Origin: a virus
Length of the DNA: 22,664 bases
IMG/VR virus record: IMGVR_UViG_3300034111_001212
Span: 1-22,664 of that record
Reading direction: 5' to 3' (one strand)
Part shown: positions 2,115 to 9,893 of the stretch, one piece after another
How the letters are laid out: the number at the start of each line of letters is the position of its first letter
Position numbering within the stretch: the stretch's first letter is position 1
Program-made: the position numbers and the translations under genes
The notes under the pieces: model-generated
Databases searched by the model: none
What the model was told of the DNA's origin: nothing
The model's input: the letters and a program-made list of their open reading frames with translations, nothing else

Positions 2115-4316
2115 CTAGAAAAGCTCAGTCTGGAGCTTTGCCCCGGCCAAATTCTCGCAAGCTTGCTTAAAATAGCTTTCCTTGAGTTCGGATCCGACAA
2201 ATTGCCGGTCCAAAGTAAGCGCTCCGACACCCTCGCTTCCAATGCCCGTAAATGGCGAGAAAACCAGATCGCCGGGATTGCTCCAAAGCTCAATCGCTCG
2301 CTCAATCACATCAAGCTGCAACGGGCAGATGTGTTTTTCGTCTTTGTGATCGCGAGCGCCATCTCGGTTGAGAACGCGGCCTTGATCGACCGTCATCCAA
2401 ACCGGAGATGCGACTTCCTGCCACCACGAAACCGGATATTTGTTTCGGTCTTTAGTGATCGGCTTTGGATTCTCACCTGGCGCCCGAAACACCAAAAGAT
2501 AATCCGGCGCTCCTACTCTCGATCCAGCCGAATCGGTGCAAAGCGTCTTGTGAAGAAGCCCATGGGCCTTTGTCCTCTGCATCTCGGTGACTGGGTTTTT
2601 CCAAATCGTGACTCGCGCGTGAAGGGTAAAGCCGTGCTTCCAAAAAGCTCTGATAATCTCGCCAGAGAAGTCTTGAAAGCCGATGTAGCCGTGCTTCCAT
2701 TTCGTGGCGAGAAGATCAACGCAATGCACGGCCACCTCGCGACCTGGAACAACGATCCGCGCCAGTTCGGCGATCAGAATCTCGAAATGCTTCGTGAACT
2801 CATCAAGGTCGTTGCAATTGCCCATGTCTTGCAAATCGTCCGAATAGGTGAACAGATCTGCAAAGGGTGGCGAGAAGACTGAGAAGTCCACCGAAGCATC
2901 CGGCAATGATTTGGCAACGCGAACGCAATCGCCGTGATAAACAGTCCAGCCTTCTCCTTGTCTCTTTTCGATATCGGTTTTCATTGTTAGTTCTTTTGTC
3001 CCTTCGCGGAATGCTGCCGCTGCAATTTTCATGCTTTCTTGCATTTCAGAGTGTTGGTTGATTTTGCGTGCTATTGTCCGCATGATTGCGCCCTCGGTCG
3101 TTGCGTGAACAACGTAAGCGTTTACTTCGCGAGTCTGTCCAAAACGATAGGAGCGCCTCAGCGCCTGGTAGAAGTCCTCGAAAGAATAGGACAGTCCAAC
3201 AAAGGCGATGTTTCGACAATGCTGCCAATTCATGCCATACCCAAAGATTCCGCTTTTGGAAATCAGAACGCGAATCTTACCATCAACAAAATCAGCGGCA
3301 GCCGTTTCTTTTTTCTTGGCTGTATCAGATCCGCGAATCTCGACCGCATCAGGAATTGACTTTGCAAGCCTTTCGCTTTCGTCGTTGGTATTGCACCATA
3401 CAATCCAAGATTCATCTGATGCATTGACAAGATCGGCCACGGCCCTCACTCGAGCCTCGGCCGTCATTCGCATCTCTTTATGCATCGTAGTCGCCGATAA
3501 GGTTGCGTTGCGGAAAAGCTCGCCATCGTTGGCCTCTCTCGTTTCATCAACATCAACGATGACGGTCTGCAGGTTGAGATTTGGCAGCGAGTATCCCGCG
3601 TCATCATAGCCAATGTCGGACGGCTTTGAGACGCATGCGGCCCATGACGCTACCCACTTCCAAAACTCGCCTTCAGCGTGCTTCTTCAATCGCCAATCGC
3701 CAGTGTTGAATGTGTCGTTGATGAAGAACGTGCAAAGCATTTGTTGCGGAGTGCAAACGCCAAGAAAATCAGCGTGCTGGCCAAACTCGGTATAATCGTT
3801 TGGCGACGGGGTAGCAGTGCATGCAAGCTTGTATGGCGTTTCGGCGAATCGCTCAGTCAAACGATGTCGAGTCTTCCCGGTAAAGCTTTTCAGAATGCTC
3901 GACTCATCGAGGACGACTCCGCCAAAGTCCACATAATCGAAATTGTCGAGCTTCTCGTAATTCGTGATCCAGATGCCTTCGCCGGAAATCTGATCGCCGG
4001 ATTCGACGACTTGAGCGGTGATCCCAAAATGCTCAGCCTCGCGTGCTGTTTGAGCAGCCACTGAAAGCGGCGTTAGAATCAGGATCGGCTTTCCAGTATG
4101 TTGCCTGACCTGGTGCGCCCACTCAAGTTGCTGGATCGTTTTACCAAGGCCGCAATCCTCGAAAAGCGCGGCGCGACCTTTCTTCACAGCCCATCTGACA
4201 ACGTGCGTTTGCCAATCGAAAAGCGGCGCAGTAATTGGCATAGGATCAAATCCGCTCGGCTTTGCGTGCTTGGTTTTCGCCTCAATAAAGGCGTCATATT
4301 CCTCTAAATTCTTCAT
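2115..4316 (-). CDS. SF2 helicase fused to DNA methyltransferase
   Basis: 733 residues. The N-terminal part, about 25-440, is an SNF2/SF2-type helicase: Walker A EDCGLGKT (53-60), DESS (137-140), TATP (167-170) and motif VI QALRRSYRFGQ (384-394). The C-terminal part, about 455-733, is an amino-methyltransferase of beta order: target motif SPPF (482-485) precedes the SAM-binding FSPFTGIGSEG (686-696). SPPF is commoner in N4-cytosine enzymes, but N6-adenine cannot be excluded. No nuclease domain is seen, so it is a modification or antirestriction enzyme rather than a full type III/ISP restriction enzyme; helicase-methyltransferase fusions are known in phages (compare P1 DarB, which is much larger). 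M445 at the domain joint has leader-like sequence before it (ACAAAAGAAC), suggesting a former or alternative start. The start at 4316 is supported by AAAAAAGAG just upstream. Confidence 0.9.
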   Translation of the reverse strand: MKNLEEYDAFIEAKTKHAKPSGFDPMPITAPLFDWQTHVVRWAVKKGRAALFEDCGLGKTIQQLEWAHQVRQHTGKPILILTPLSVAAQTAREAEHFGITAQVVESGDQISGEGIWITNYEKLDNFDYVDFGGVVLDESSILKSFTGKTRHRLTERFAETPYKLACTATPSPNDYTEFGQHADFLGVCTPQQMLCTFFINDTFNTGDWRLKKHAEGEFWKWVASWAACVSKPSDIGYDDAGYSLPNLNLQTVIVDVDETREANDGELFRNATLSATTMHKEMRMTAEARVRAVADLVNASDESWIVWCNTNDESERLAKSIPDAVEIRGSDTAKKKETAAADFVDGKIRVLISKSGIFGYGMNWQHCRNIAFVGLSYSFEDFYQALRRSYRFGQTREVNAYVVHATTEGAIMRTIARKINQHSEMQESMKIAAAAFREGTKELTMKTDIEKRQGEGWTVYHGDCVRVAKSLPDASVDFSVFSPPFADLFTYSDDLQDMGNCNDLDEFTKHFEILIAELARIVVPGREVAVHCVDLLATKWKHGYIGFQDFSGEIIRAFWKHGFTLHARVTIWKNPVTEMQRTKAHGLLHKTLCTDSAGSRVGAPDYLLVFRAPGENPKPITKDRNKYPVSWWQEVASPVWMTVDQGRVLNRDGARDHKDEKHICPLQLDVIERAIELWSNPGDLVFSPFTGIGSEGVGALTLDRQFVGSELKESYFKQACENLAGAKLQTELF
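2982..3000 (-). promoter_or_regulatory. Possible internal translation start of the methyltransferase half
   Basis: At the joint between helicase and methyltransferase the coding strand reads GGGACAAAAGAACTAACA and then an in-frame ATG (2984-2982), followed by AAAACC. This resembles the A-rich leaders before the helicase, RecT and 11088-11498 genes and the MKN-type starts of two of them. It may be a working internal start producing a free methyltransferase of about 289 residues, or a relic of two once-separate genes. Confidence 0.35.
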
Positions 4317-4874: not shown

Positions 4875-5090
4875 TCAATCAAGTTTCAGCTTGAACATCA
4901 GCGAGATCACGGCCTCGCGCTCGGTCTCTCCGCATTGGGTTTCCACTTCGCCGAAAAGCTCAATCGAAGCCTCCCAATAGGAATCGGACATATCGAAAAC
5001 ATAGAAGGTTTCGATGCCTAGGCGTTTCGCGTCCTGCTTCCAGCGCGGGGCGCTTTCGGCAACGTCTAAAAAGTCGTTTACGTCGTTCAT
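4875..5090 (-). CDS. Small acidic protein of unknown function
   Basis: 71 residues, acidic, soluble: NDVNDFLDVAESAPRW, then a likely beta-strand GIETFYVFDM, and a charged C-terminus rich in E. No catalytic motif or membrane segment is visible. The ATG at 5090 overlaps the previous gene's stop (ATGA), which supports both reading frame and start. It may be an inhibitor or accessory protein of the early region, as small acidic phage proteins often are, but nothing in the sequence shows this. Confidence 0.65.
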   Translation of the reverse strand: MNDVNDFLDVAESAPRWKQDAKRLGIETFYVFDMSDSYWEASIELFGEVETQCGETEREAVISLMFKLKLD

Positions 5091-5894: not shown

Positions 5895-6208
5895 GATATA
5901 TCTATTTCTTTAATCTCGTATCTTCCGTTTTTGTTTTTGCGCCACCCGTGGACCAAAATGATCCATCCGGCGGCTCGTAAATGCTCCAAGGCATCTGATT
6001 CGGTCATCTTGTTGATGCGGCTTTTTGTGTTGCTCCAGCTTGTTGATTGCACCGCTACGGTCTCGCCATCGCGGATCGCGAGGATGTCGATGATGCCGAA
6101 AAGATCCTGTCTAATGCGAGCGTGAGGATTCCACTTCTCGACTACCTGGACTAGCTGACACGTTTTGCGCAGATGGGCCAGACTGCGAGCGGTGGGGGAT
6201 TGTTTCAT
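5891..6208 (-). CDS. PD-(D/E)XK-nuclease-like small protein
   Basis: 105 residues. The pattern VVEKWNPHARIRQDLFGIIDILAI ... GETVAVQSTSWSN ... RINKMTES ... AAGWIILVHGWRKNKNGRYEIKE matches a small family common in phages and plasmids that I take to have a restriction-endonuclease-like fold. The D of DLFG and the D of IDI are candidate metal ligands, and the strand VAVQSTS takes the place of the usual E-x-K. The Gln instead of Glu means cleavage activity is uncertain. It lies just downstream of the cytosine methyltransferase with a 4-base overlap, so a modification-linked or junction-processing role is possible. Fold assignment is by pattern memory, not by search. Confidence 0.6.
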   Translation of the reverse strand: MKQSPTARSLAHLRKTCQLVQVVEKWNPHARIRQDLFGIIDILAIRDGETVAVQSTSWSNTKSRINKMTESDALEHLRAAGWIILVHGWRKNKNGRYEIKEIDIS

Positions 6209-7251
6209 GCGAATTGCTCCATCAGCACTCGAAAAGCTCTTTCTGCTGTTGCTGGCACAACTCCGTTTCCAAGGAGTCGCAGTTCGTCAGTTCGATTGTC
6301 ACAGGTTGTAAACAACTTGGCATGACCCATCCAATCGGAATGCCCATCAGCGTCTCGACCCATCGAGCGTTTAGCTTGCCTTTCTGTGTCCTCTCCACCA
6401 TCGGAGTCAGTTCCTTGTATTCCCGCCCCTCGTTGCCCCTGCCGCTCTTGTAGTCGCGGGCTGTCGGCGTTGCCCACAACTCGTGGCGGCTCCCATGCGA
6501 ACTGGTTCTCACCGGGGCGGCTTGGCCATGCATTGCTACTGCGACATTGAGATTCTGCATCGCATTGTCTCTTTGATGCACTTCGTTTCCCGTCACACTG
6601 CGGTAGTCGCGGGCTTGAACTGTTGGCCATTGCTCCGCCGCATAGACCTTCCTCGCCAGTTGGTCTTCCCGGTTGCGTGTCGGGTCGGCATACATCCACG
6701 CACCAGGGCAATCTTTGTGGTCCCGTGCCGATGCGGTGGGCCATGATGAAGACCCGCTTCCGTTGATGAGGCGCGCCGACTTCACTCGCTGAGAATATGC
6801 CCCACGTTGTTCTGTAACCCAACTCTTCCAGGTCACTGATGACTGCGGCGAGTCCCAACGATATATGTCCTTCGACGTTTTCAAAGAAACAGATCCTTGG
6901 TCGAAGAAGTCGAATTCCGCTTGCGATAAAAGGCCAAAGATGTCGTGGGTCGTTTTCTCCTTCCCGTCTTCCTGCGGCTGAAAATGGTTGGCATGGATAA
7001 CCTCCAGTGAGGATGTCCACGCGATCTCGAAAGCTTTCCCACGGGAAGGTTTTAAGATCCGTCCAGATAGGTGCTGAGTCCAAGAGTCCCGCTTCCATTT
7101 TTGCGACCAGGTTCGCACAGGCGAAAGCTTCGATCTCACAAAGAGCGACTGAGCGCAGAGTTGGGATTGCTCGACGCAGTCCAAGCTCAATGCCTCCATA
7201 TCCGGCACATAGGCCGATATGAGTTGTTTGGGAACAATCCACATTGATCAT
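6205..7251 (-). CDS. DNA C5-cytosine methyltransferase
   Basis: 348 residues from ATG 7251, chosen because it makes an ATGA overlap with the exonuclease stop; a further upstream start would overlap that gene. Motifs are in the usual order: SAM-binding CAGYGGIELGL (15-25), the catalytic PCQ loop GGYPCQPFS with Cys87, ENV (124-126), QRKRVF (163-168) and the C-terminal LGNGVVPATAERAF. It methylates cytosine C5 in phage DNA; the target is unknown. Residues about 170-320, where a target-recognition domain is expected, are low complexity and polar with repeated AMANSSSPRL and VGNADSPRLQ segments. This whole stretch is open in a second frame with its own recognisable motifs, so the gene may be dual-coding. 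No partner restriction enzyme is nearby: an orphan, probably antirestriction. Confidence 0.93.
   Translation of the reverse strand: MINVDCSQTTHIGLCAGYGGIELGLRRAIPTLRSVALCEIEAFACANLVAKMEAGLLDSAPIWTDLKTFPWESFRDRVDILTGGYPCQPFSAAGRREGENDPRHLWPFIASGIRLLRPRICFFENVEGHISLGLAAVISDLEELGYRTTWGIFSASEVGAPHQRKRVFIMAHRIGTGPQRLPWCVDVCRPDTQPGRPTGEEGLCGGAMANSSSPRLPQCDGKRSASKRQCDAESQCRSSNAWPSRPGENQFAWEPPRVVGNADSPRLQERQGQRGAGIQGTDSDGGEDTERQAKRSMGRDADGHSDWMGHAKLFTTCDNRTDELRLLGNGVVPATAERAFRVLMEQFA
6222..7244 (-). CDS. Overlapping reading frame inside the cytosine methyltransferase gene (putative second protein)
   Basis: 340 codons open in the +1 frame relative to the methyltransferase, starting 7 bases after its ATG and ending 17 bases before its end. 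It is not random-looking: it holds three copies of a W-[PA]-T-x-x-ARD-[HY]-[KR] motif (168-177 WPTASARDHK, 206-215 WPTVQARDYR, 257-266 WATPTARDYK), a SSVTWKSWVTEQRGAYSQR segment and LNARWVETLMGIPIGW (291-306). I recall these motifs from phage proteins annotated near cytosine methyltransferases. Each ARD motif overlaps a repeated NA-SPRL-type segment of the main frame. Function unknown; it could be a frameshift product or an independently started protein. The frame is visible, the protein is inferred. Confidence 0.5.
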   Translation of the reverse strand: MWIVPKQLISAYVPDMEALSLDCVEQSQLCAQSLFVRSKLSPVRTWSQKWKRDSWTQHLSGRILKPSRGKAFEIAWTSSLEVIHANHFQPQEDGKEKTTHDIFGLLSQAEFDFFDQGSVSLKTSKDIYRWDSPQSSVTWKSWVTEQRGAYSQRVKSARLINGSGSSSWPTASARDHKDCPGAWMYADPTRNREDQLARKVYAAEQWPTVQARDYRSVTGNEVHQRDNAMQNLNVAVAMHGQAAPVRTSSHGSRHELWATPTARDYKSGRGNEGREYKELTPMVERTQKGKLNARWVETLMGIPIGWVMPSCLQPVTIELTNCDSLETELCQQQQKELFEC

Positions 7252-7889
7252 GCCTTTCTTTTGTTCGCTGCAATCTCCTGCTGCCACGCTTCCTCGTATT
7301 GAGCGGAGAACGAGATCAGTGCGGCCTTGAGCTTTTCCGTAAACTCATCGCGTTCGACGAGGATGCGGAGCGGAGCGAGGCCCGGATTCCAAGACTGAAA
7401 CCACCATCCCCCTGTGGCTCCTGTCACGGCGAGAGAACCATAAATTTGAAAACGATATTCTTCCGGCAGTTCGCCTGCTCGACGGTAGCGGATATGCGTC
7501 TCAGGCACTGGAACCTTGCCTTCAAACCCAATCGAGTGACCAACAATCAGACCATCCGGCGAGCAACCGAAGTTGCCAAATTTGGACAAACAGAATCCGA
7601 CATCCGCGACCTTGATCCCGGTCTCGCCCTCGAAAGCCGCGACCGCTTGCGGTTCAAGCTCCGTTCCGCGTTGCATTGCCCAGTTCTCGTAGTTAGGCGC
7701 GGACTCGCAGTTTGCGCGTTCAGCGATCAGTTTGCAAATCGCACGCTCGCGAGCCTGTTCCGCGACCTTGCCAGAGTTCAACAACCACGGCCCGAAGTTC
7801 GATGCGGTGAGGACTCCACGGCGAAGGTCGTGCCATTCATCGGAGCGCTGCTCGCAGTAATAGATTGTGCAGTCTGGAAATTCTTTCAT
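7248..7889 (-). CDS. YqaJ/lambda-Exo type recombination exonuclease
   Basis: 213 residues. It matches the YqaJ viral recombinase family: QRSDEWHDLRRGVLTASNFG near the N-terminus, the helix AMQRGTELEPQAVAAFE (71-87), then the metal site CSPDGL with Asp112, FEGKVP with Glu123 and Lys125, and RFQIYGSL with Gln148. It should be a processive 5'-3' double-strand exonuclease that leaves 3' tails for the RecT protein encoded upstream in the same operon. Start and stop overlap the neighbours by 4 bases. Length is normal for the family and all key residues are present, so it should be active. Between it and recT lie two other genes, a ParB-like protein and an unknown. Confidence 0.92.
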   Translation of the reverse strand: MKEFPDCTIYYCEQRSDEWHDLRRGVLTASNFGPWLLNSGKVAEQARERAICKLIAERANCESAPNYENWAMQRGTELEPQAVAAFEGETGIKVADVGFCLSKFGNFGCSPDGLIVGHSIGFEGKVPVPETHIRYRRAGELPEEYRFQIYGSLAVTGATGGWWFQSWNPGLAPLRILVERDEFTEKLKAALISFSAQYEEAWQQEIAANKRKA

Positions 7890-9123: not shown

Positions 9124-9893
9124 GCTGCACCTCCCTCTTCAATGACTTCAGCCTGCGCCTCGATGGCGGGAGCGATAGGAGCGGCAGGGGCAAAAGAAAC
9201 CTTCGCGGCCTCGTTGGCTGCTCGATTCACCTGAATGTCGGCGAGCTTGTCACCGTCCTTGTCGAGCGCATCGTGGAACTCGGGCGAAAGCGTGAGCCGT
9301 TTGGAATGGCGGCGAATAACCGTCTTTTTCGCCATCTCCTCAAAGTCCGTTACCCACGGGCCGGATCCGCTTGCCTTGGACCGTTTGCGAATCGCTTCCA
9401 CCTCGGCCAGTGTCATGACCTCGGTGTCGATCTCGCCGTTGGCCATTTTAACGATGCTGTAGACAGCTTGCAGCTTTCCTCGATCTTCCCGCCAGTTGAC
9501 CGCATGGCTGATCTCGCCATTGATCCATTCGAAGGAGTCGTTTTCCTTGACTGTCTCGGCCTTCCAAGAAACCACCTCGCCGGATCGTTTCGCCAGTTCG
9601 ACAAGCCCCTTCCAATCAACGATGAGCTGCACCTCTTTTCCGTAGGGAATGAGATGGCAGCGCCGCCCGTCCGGCTCAAGGCCCAGCGAAGAGCAGTCGA
9701 GCATCGCTCGCATAAAGCTCTCTTGCGAGCATTCGGCGAGCTTCGGGGAGCGAAGCAGAAGGGTTGTTGCAACGCGCAGAAAGCGATCTGGCGTCATGTG
9801 GCTAGGCAATGCGCGAGCAATCTGCGCACGCACGGCCTCGGAATTGATCAGCCCCTTGATAGTGCGAGGAGCTTCGGTAATTTCGTTTTTCAT
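9120..9893 (-). CDS. recT: RecT single-strand annealing protein
   Basis: 257 residues, close to the usual RecT length. Recognisable RecT core: TPDRFLRVATTLLLRSPKLAECS, then SFMRAMLDCSSLGLEPDG, CHLIPYGKEVQLIVDWKGLVELA (about 80-104), and later VTDFEEMAKKTVIRRHSKR. The C-terminal about 40 residues are Ala, Pro and Glu rich and probably flexible. It anneals complementary single strands made by the YqaJ exonuclease, for recombination and concatemer formation. The ATG at 9893 has an A-rich leader with GAGA (9897-9910), like the helicase gene. It heads the recombination run recT - ParB-like - unknown - exonuclease. Confidence 0.93.
   Translation of the reverse strand: MKNEITEAPRTIKGLINSEAVRAQIARALPSHMTPDRFLRVATTLLLRSPKLAECSQESFMRAMLDCSSLGLEPDGRRCHLIPYGKEVQLIVDWKGLVELAKRSGEVVSWKAETVKENDSFEWINGEISHAVNWREDRGKLQAVYSIVKMANGEIDTEVMTLAEVEAIRKRSKASGSGPWVTDFEEMAKKTVIRRHSKRLTLSPEFHDALDKDGDKLADIQVNRAANEAAKVSFAPAAPIAPAIEAQAEVIEEGGAA

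Follow-up and report, generated by a model that had tools for sequence, protein, structure and literature searches.

Fused gene and its joint

The window, a 22,664-nt stretch of viral DNA (IMG/VR record IMGVR_UViG_3300034111_001212), carries on its minus strand a single frame of 733 aa (2115..4316, stop codon at 2115-2117), in which an SNF2-type motor is followed by an N6/N4 DNA methyltransferase. Pfam analysis identified SNF2-rel_dom (residues 36-186), Helicase_C (290-393) and N6_N4_Mtase (476-719), all in one frame, and the phrog_16 profile covers residues 27-727. With both domain types in one frame, the protein is a motor-methyltransferase fusion of phrog_16. An AlphaFold model of the 733-aa protein (pLDDT 85.5, alignment of 73 sequences) yielded SNF2-type motors and the methylase TTHA0409 among the 50 Foldseek matches listed of 1883; the methyltransferase part matches TTHA0409, CcrM, DpnA and MboIIA. 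A type III restriction system (Res/Mod) was ruled out, as no nuclease family was found beside the motor in a Pfam search of the window protein (E up to 0.001). PADLOC identified methyltransferase or motor stretches only, among the 25 families listed of 52. The nearest copies in bacterial genomes (best 80 loci) are situated in the Verrucomicrobiota bins L327 (71%), L328 (70%) and L330 (60%) and in L329, a bin named Proteobacteria (61%). As these copies stem mostly from Verrucomicrobiota, their sequences make a host of this phylum likely for the virus.

In the model, the motor part (residues 1-438; 3003..4316, minus strand) is closed by a helix (406-438) and lacks the C-terminal tail of its free homologues. 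It is followed by a linker (residues 439-449; 2970..3002, minus strand) that is modeled with less certainty (mean pLDDT 68 for residues 431-440 and 72 for 441-450) and by the first strand of the methyltransferase (450-454). M445 is consequently located within the linker, five residues ahead of the methyltransferase core, and the module that begins with it (2118..2984, minus strand) has the length of a free methyltransferase. The linker is variable upstream of M445, and the MKT.I sequence is better kept. The original prediction had singled out 2982-3000 as a relic or working internal start; this stretch comprises the leader and the ATG, and the relevant feature is the linker, at about 2970-3002.

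On the minus strand, the joint reads GAA GGG ACA AAA GAA CTA ACA ATG AAA ACC, in frame. The ATG of M445 (2984..2982) is a candidate former, possibly still working, methyltransferase start, and the A that follows it yields ATGA, as in the usual 4-nt overlap. Its leader (2985..3000, minus strand) is A-rich, unstructured and devoid of a strong Shine-Dalgarno sequence. The proposed resemblance to true starts of the same record was borne out, as leaders and ATGAA- beginnings are alike: the recT start (9891..9893, minus strand) reads ...aaccaaaaaagagacaa ATGAAA, and the fused gene's own start (4314..4316, minus strand), which has an A-rich leader without a Shine-Dalgarno sequence, reads ...gtaaaacaaaaaagag ATGAAG. 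The start of ORF 4875-5090 reads ...gcaaagaacaaacc ATGAAC. Of the 29 starts examined between 712 and 22621, some have a leader with a strong Shine-Dalgarno sequence and others have a leader that lacks it, and the joint is akin to the A-rich leaders of the latter class, to which those of recT and the fused gene belong.

For a quantitative comparison, a start-site matrix was built from 322 starts of the window clade's contigs, which were called mechanically by rule and are unverified. Of 1476 internal in-frame ATGs, with the joint ATGs themselves counted in, 98% score below the joint; at this rate, an equally good score is expected for about 2 of the 97 internal ATGs of the window. The Shine-Dalgarno energy at the joint is -4.3, a value that 27% of these 97 ATGs reach. 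As a ribosome-binding site, the joint is not special.

Split homologues and the position of the start codon

Four viral scans, a phages collection and one genome scan provided 405 loci. Together with the window, these comprise 239 fused and 163 split arrangements, two loci in which the methyltransferase precedes the motor (L089, L300) and two whose contig is missing the methyltransferase (L315, L402), the last four standing outside the fused and split classes. Two more scans raised the totals to 342, 180, two and two of 526 classified loci, with contigs partly repeated; five of the 125 new loci were left out, as they were cut at the contig end (L426, L527, L529) or without a methyltransferase (L525, L531). 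Every scan was limited to at most the best 80 loci, and the counts describe the sample rather than nature. A tree was constructed from 128 representatives (75 fused, 53 split) drawn from 388 of 402 classified loci; for reading the joint, 15 of the 128 were dropped since the motif was not readable.

Both forms are already on record: a protein of Mycobacterium phage Sarma624 is named a fusion, and Synechococcus phage S-LBS1 has two genes. The suggestion that relatives with separate helicase and methyltransferase genes and the same junction might exist was confirmed by the 180 split loci, with methyltransferase starts at the position of M445. Judged from these sequences, the split relatives have their junction at the same place, as expected for the fusion of a split pair. 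The opposite expectation, namely that all relatives are fused through a conserved linker and none has a methyltransferase-only product, was found to hold by half. No methyltransferase-only copy was seen near the window, since the 58 loci with at least 74% identity to the methyltransferase part (best 80 of 387) consist of 57 fused genes and one cut at the contig end; the linker is variable, however, and more distant relatives are split. In two split loci, insertions are found at the very joint: a small ORF and an endonuclease gene lie between motor and methyltransferase in Flavobacterium phage hattifnatt9-1 (L321, 2447-3027), and a small ORF in a Helicobacter prophage (L092, 2892-3047).

The methyltransferase start could be read in 130 of 163 split rows, representing 53 clusters. 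It was picked by rule as the ATG nearest to 15 codons before the GDC motif, a pattern that also matches GDN in starts of the MKPDYQGDN type, e.g., in S-LBS1, which accounts for part of the unread rows. In these 53 clusters, the start is situated 12-21 codons before GDC, most commonly 16 (19/53), and M445 lies 17 codons before it. The start is ATG in 48 of the 53 clusters, overlaps the motor stop by 4 nt in 23 and is preceded by a Shine-Dalgarno sequence with a mean energy of -6.06. Deposited starts agree with the rule in 8 of 11 named split phages; those of L084 and L318 differ, and L082 was not scored. Independently of the rule, ATGA closes the motor gene in 121 of 180 split rows; for 92 of them, the ATG precedes GDC by 13-19 codons. 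The remaining ATGA rows were misread at 6 codons due to GDN (24 rows), gave a distance of 9 (one row) or were unreadable (four rows). The neighboring split clade has starts such as MKPDY, MKKPEY and MKTEY, to be compared with MKTDI at the joint; in its S-LBS1-like rows, the start lies at -14 and thereby differs by three codons from M445, and other members start at 15-17 codons. Translational coupling of such ATGA pairs is documented in excerpts of an earlier study (PMC6728339).

Codon 445 is ATG in 35 of the 53 window-clade representatives, including members of both deepest branches (L330, L486, L490, L491, L495 on one; L329, L520 on the other). For the 53 representatives, five changes are required if ATG is ancestral and six if it is not, with an outgroup root support of 52. 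The ATG was thus lost about five times within the clade, with Met replaced by A, E, K, I, V, L or S and the gene retained; judging by the aligned genes, it is not essential. In all 174 clade rows, a set drawn exclusively from fused rows and containing some contigs twice, 118 have ATG and the other 56 have GCA, AAG, GCC, ATA, GCG, AAA, GAA, TCC, GCT, CTC or GTC; none of these 56 carries GTG, TTG or CTG. All 35 ATG representatives show ATGA, because the next codon encodes lysine or asparagine. Outside the window clade, Met is absent from the joint of L331, the closest fused row of the outgroup. In 49 other fused rows, which are not independent, Met is present at -14 to -18 in 12 vs. 6.5 expected (P 0.035), and at -12 to -21 it is not enriched (16 vs. 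13.1 expected). A general Met enrichment at the joint of other fused clades was accordingly discarded as weak.

The position match suggests that the ATG of M445 is probably the former methyltransferase start. Alternatively, M445 was never a start: the fusion would be old, MKT.I would simply mark the conserved N-terminal edge of the methyltransferase fold, and split genes would stem from repeated fission nearby. This scenario, which appears unlikely overall, draws on the better conservation of K446, T447 and I449 (2, 3 and 3 changes in 43 representatives, vs. 7 for M445) and on the aforementioned replacement of Met by seven other residues without loss of the gene.

Motor tail and direction of change

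Free motors end in a tail of the form Y...P.[WF][LI], and fused ones do not. In the census, 175 of 178 split loci (68 of 70 clusters) had P.[FW] among the final 18 residues of the motor, at a background of 0.8%, compared with one of 77 fused clusters with a readable joint, the exception being L392; two of the 180 split rows (L403, L482) were left out for length. Of 53 split representatives, 46 carry the related pattern [LIVMFC]P.[FWYL] in the same C-terminal stretch of 18 residues, vs. one of 68 fused linkers, with 4.2% of 18-residue motor windows as background. In its commonest form, the tail has Y at -9, P at 0, W or F at +2 and L, I or M at +3. It is missing from the Mycobacterium phages L319 and L320, from L357 and likewise from L403, which was too short for the census. 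With a motor that ends at RFGQ in L357 and is only 247 residues long in L403, these two rows appear to be broken or truncated rather than genuinely split.

The tail occurs in far-apart split clades. It is still present (P.[WF]) in L089 (1504-4879) and L300 (2038-4293), where the methyltransferase lies upstream of the motor, and it therefore does not serve the reading-frame overlap only. Our reading of these sequence patterns is that the tail might dock the methyltransferase and become dispensable once both are fused. A search for a matching methyltransferase pocket, i.e., columns conserved in split but not in fused rows, revealed no clean pocket. From RFGQ, the median distance is 72 residues to the motor end in 53 split rows and 56 to the methyltransferase start position in 67 fused rows; about 16 residues of motor tail are missing from the window lineage.

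The single exception, L392 from a Clostridia bin, is fused and nevertheless exhibits the tail (IPEWL), followed by GGAGGA and an in-frame GTG at -16. In its model (pLDDT 90.1; 77 sequences, among them partial rows from split motors and split methyltransferases), a loose stretch (439-445) is followed by an ordered block (451-460, mean 92) that contains the tail: a strand at 451-454 and then IPEWL at 455-459, with a helix turn at EWL. On sequence, L392 looks like a fresh fusion, though it stems from a single metagenome bin and could be an assembly error.

Taken together, the joint is best explained, with reasonable though not full confidence, as a gene-fusion seam. The ancestor would have had two neighboring genes, one for an SNF2-type motor with a Y...P.[WF][LI] tail and one for a methyltransferase whose ATG often overlapped the motor stop (ATGA). 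In the window lineage, tail and stop would then have been lost and the frames joined, so that the old start ATG became the internal codon M445, followed by MKT.I as a remnant of the methyltransferase N-terminus. The linker would now join motor and methyltransferase as the tail once did, and the ATP-driven motor might carry or position the methyltransferase on DNA. The original prediction had proposed a fusion of adjacent genes by loss of a stop. The fusion itself is consistent with the split relatives, their starts at the M445 position and L392; the window lineage, however, shows more than bare stop loss, as about 16 tail residues are gone too, and models based on the fused and split labels alone put the fused form as the older state.

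The direction of change is indeed where these lines of evidence diverge. On the 128-row tree, fused and split rows interleave with 15 label changes, at least 11 of which are forced by starred branches, whereas 38 of the tree's 125 inner branches are weak. One unresolved fork gives rise to the window's group, in which all 20 rows are fused, to a split group of 24 rows, to a mixed group (seven split rows, one fused) and to a single fused row. Midpoint rooting gives 15 maximal split clades vs. 27 fused ones, the latter at least 16 after collapsing weak branches. A two-rate model on this rooted tree estimated rates of 0.08 for split-to-fused and 0.43 for fused-to-split changes; the probability of the fused state was above 0.99 for the window clade, also when L331 was included, and 0.99 at its common ancestor with the S-LBS1-like split clade. 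Both label-only parsimony and this model thus speak for the scenario in which M445 was never a start. That scenario would, however, require the tail of 68 of 70 split clusters to be re-invented at every fission, and it is at odds with the tail and start remnants inside the fused frame of L392. Because each fission would have to invent the same tail, the shared tail points to split genes first. A split ancestor is therefore favored without being settled, with the label-only models favoring fused first.

Phage genes recombine, and a further explanation for the mosaic is that whole junctions are swapped between phages, in which case neither state would be older for the window and the joined-core tree would mislead. 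The interleaving of fused and split rows and the weak inner branches fit this idea. Two split loci also differ in the nearness of their two parts to the window, with L528 showing 60.6% identity in the methyltransferase vs. 45.2% in the motor and L353 46.3% vs. 53.8%, which may signal junction swapping. Against it, no split row among the best 80 loci per scan exceeds 53.8% identity to the window in the motor (60.6% in the methyltransferase), compared with 57-63% (57-71%) for the deepest fused rows of the window clade. Since no split row is nearer in the motor, the window clade looks stably fused, and junction swapping is considered improbable, the least favored of the explanations weighed here.

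Under the favored seam explanation, the family forms a natural series that leads from two genes via an apparent fresh fusion (L392) to old fusions without a tail and partly without the start codon. The argument that proteins fused elsewhere are partners here thereby becomes testable at residue level, because the candidate docking tail of split motors is gone after fusion.

Possible initiation at M445 and comparison with known systems

Whether fused genes retain an internal start for their second enzyme can likewise be tested cleanly in this family. If ribosomes also initiated at M445 on the A-rich, unstructured leader, one gene would supply both a tethered and an untethered methyltransferase, a proposal that is compatible with a gene-fusion seam. 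Several features of the joint agree with it. On the start matrix, 33 distinct joint ATGs score like starts (mean 1.76, compared with 1.92 for called starts and -1.96 for internal ATGs). RNA structure was measured on 39 nt centered on the codon, and A-excess, defined as synonymous A beyond the prediction from amino acids and the gene's codon use, on the seven codons upstream. Across the 35 ATG representatives, no other of the 705 columns is as weakly structured as the joint (mean -0.44 kcal/mol, z 3.4), which also ranks sixth of 704 for A-excess (1.40, z 3.75); in the 18 representatives lacking the ATG, its ranks are 28 of 705 for structure and 104 of 704 for A-excess. Among 17 Met columns, the joint comes first for structure and A-excess alike. 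Per-gene z-scores of ATG and non-ATG rows, which are related to each other, differ with Mann-Whitney values of 0.00017 (structure) and 0.002 (A-excess). What lifts the joint above chance is thus its place, at the start position of split homologues, together with its context of low structure and A-excess. In the excerpted text of Scharff et al. (2011; PMC3121790), unfolded RNA at the AUG marks starts that are free of a Shine-Dalgarno sequence, and internal AUGs are described as normally structured. On account of this low-structure criterion, initiation at M445 is still regarded as a possibility, if a doubtful one.

Other comparisons weaken this proposal. In five tree-chosen contrasts between ATG and non-ATG rows, A-excess over 7 codons was higher in three (in one by 0.1), tied in one and lower in one; over 13 codons, it was higher in three and lower in two. 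Structure was clearly weaker in two of the five and near-equal in three. Coarse per-gene percentiles within the clade are alike as well (.83/.94 for 12 ATG rows,.87/.92 for seven others). The mean Shine-Dalgarno energy at the joint (-0.55) is weaker than at internal ATGs (-2.61) and split starts (-6.06), and no lost ATG was replaced by GTG, TTG or CTG in the 56 non-ATG rows. The Shine-Dalgarno sequence was therefore rejected as a signal of the joint, its mean energy being weaker than at internal ATGs. Synonymous codon conservation, which peaks at the joint (rank 7 of 700 at codon 443), was given little weight as proof of a start because other places outrank it. The independently fused S-CBS3 clade (L086, L173-L252) shows an A-excess peak in its linker too, and A-excess may accordingly be a linker trait. 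In this clade, the peak coincides with a Met at -28 relative to GDC; L086 and three rows closely related to it have the sequence AAGGAATCAACCATG, and a Met at -17 is confined to close relatives of L086. The suggested continued production of a free methyltransferase is hence backed by the start-like context and weakened by the repeated loss of the ATG and the lack of a retained Shine-Dalgarno sequence. A broader model, in which free motors dock the methyltransferase through the Y...P.[WF][LI] peptide, fusion swaps this peptide for the linker and some old starts still yield free enzyme, can be put forward only tentatively and is, as a whole, rather unlikely.

In-frame internal starts are familiar from gene 4A/4B of phage T7, where one frame gives rise to a long and a short product; unlike in T7, the second product of the window gene is putative. 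The closest named counterpart is the Sarma624 protein, deposited as "DNA helicase/methyltransferase fusion protein" and assigned to phrog_16, in which one chain carries motor and then methyltransferase as in the window. It is about 34% identical and larger, and its annotation does not mention a start codon at the joint. The split pairs of S-LBS1 (A50/A49), Dulem virus 39, EBPR podovirus 1 and Pseudanabaena phage Pan4 encode the same enzymes in the same order, with the methyltransferase start near the M445 position (the deposited starts of EBPR and Pan4 differ from those picked by rule); unlike the window, they have two genes and a motor with the Y...P.[WF][LI] tail.

In DarB of phage P1 and other polyvalent methylase-helicase dyads, as described in excerpts of PMC5512222, a methyltransferase is joined to an SWI2/SNF2 ATPase; joint action on phage DNA is proposed there, with the motor translocating the methyltransferase on DNA in the manner of type III enzymes. 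DarB has an EcoKI/TaqI-like methyltransferase and the reverse domain order, whereas that of the window is TTHA0409-, CcrM-, DpnA- and MboIIA-like. Membership in the DarB-type polyvalent methylase-helicases was ruled out, since the window motor (36-393) precedes the methyltransferase (476-719); owing to this opposite order, only the idea of a motor-moved methyltransferase is adopted. That neighboring enzyme genes remain active when joined in frame is illustrated by an artificial Eco29kI R-M fusion (PMC3039593), which differs from the window gene in being engineered and in combining an endonuclease with a methyltransferase. No paper among the literature matches listed deals with a relic start or a motor tail in the motor-methyltransferase family, which is no proof of absence.

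The window's cytosine-C5 methyltransferase gene at 6205-7287 (minus strand) is overlapped by another long frame at 6222-7244 (minus strand, 340 aa). The latter matches phrog_1008 DNA methyltransferase (2e-21), and the former matches phrog_1008 weakly at its end (4e-4), so that two frames with methyltransferase homology cover the same 1 kb.
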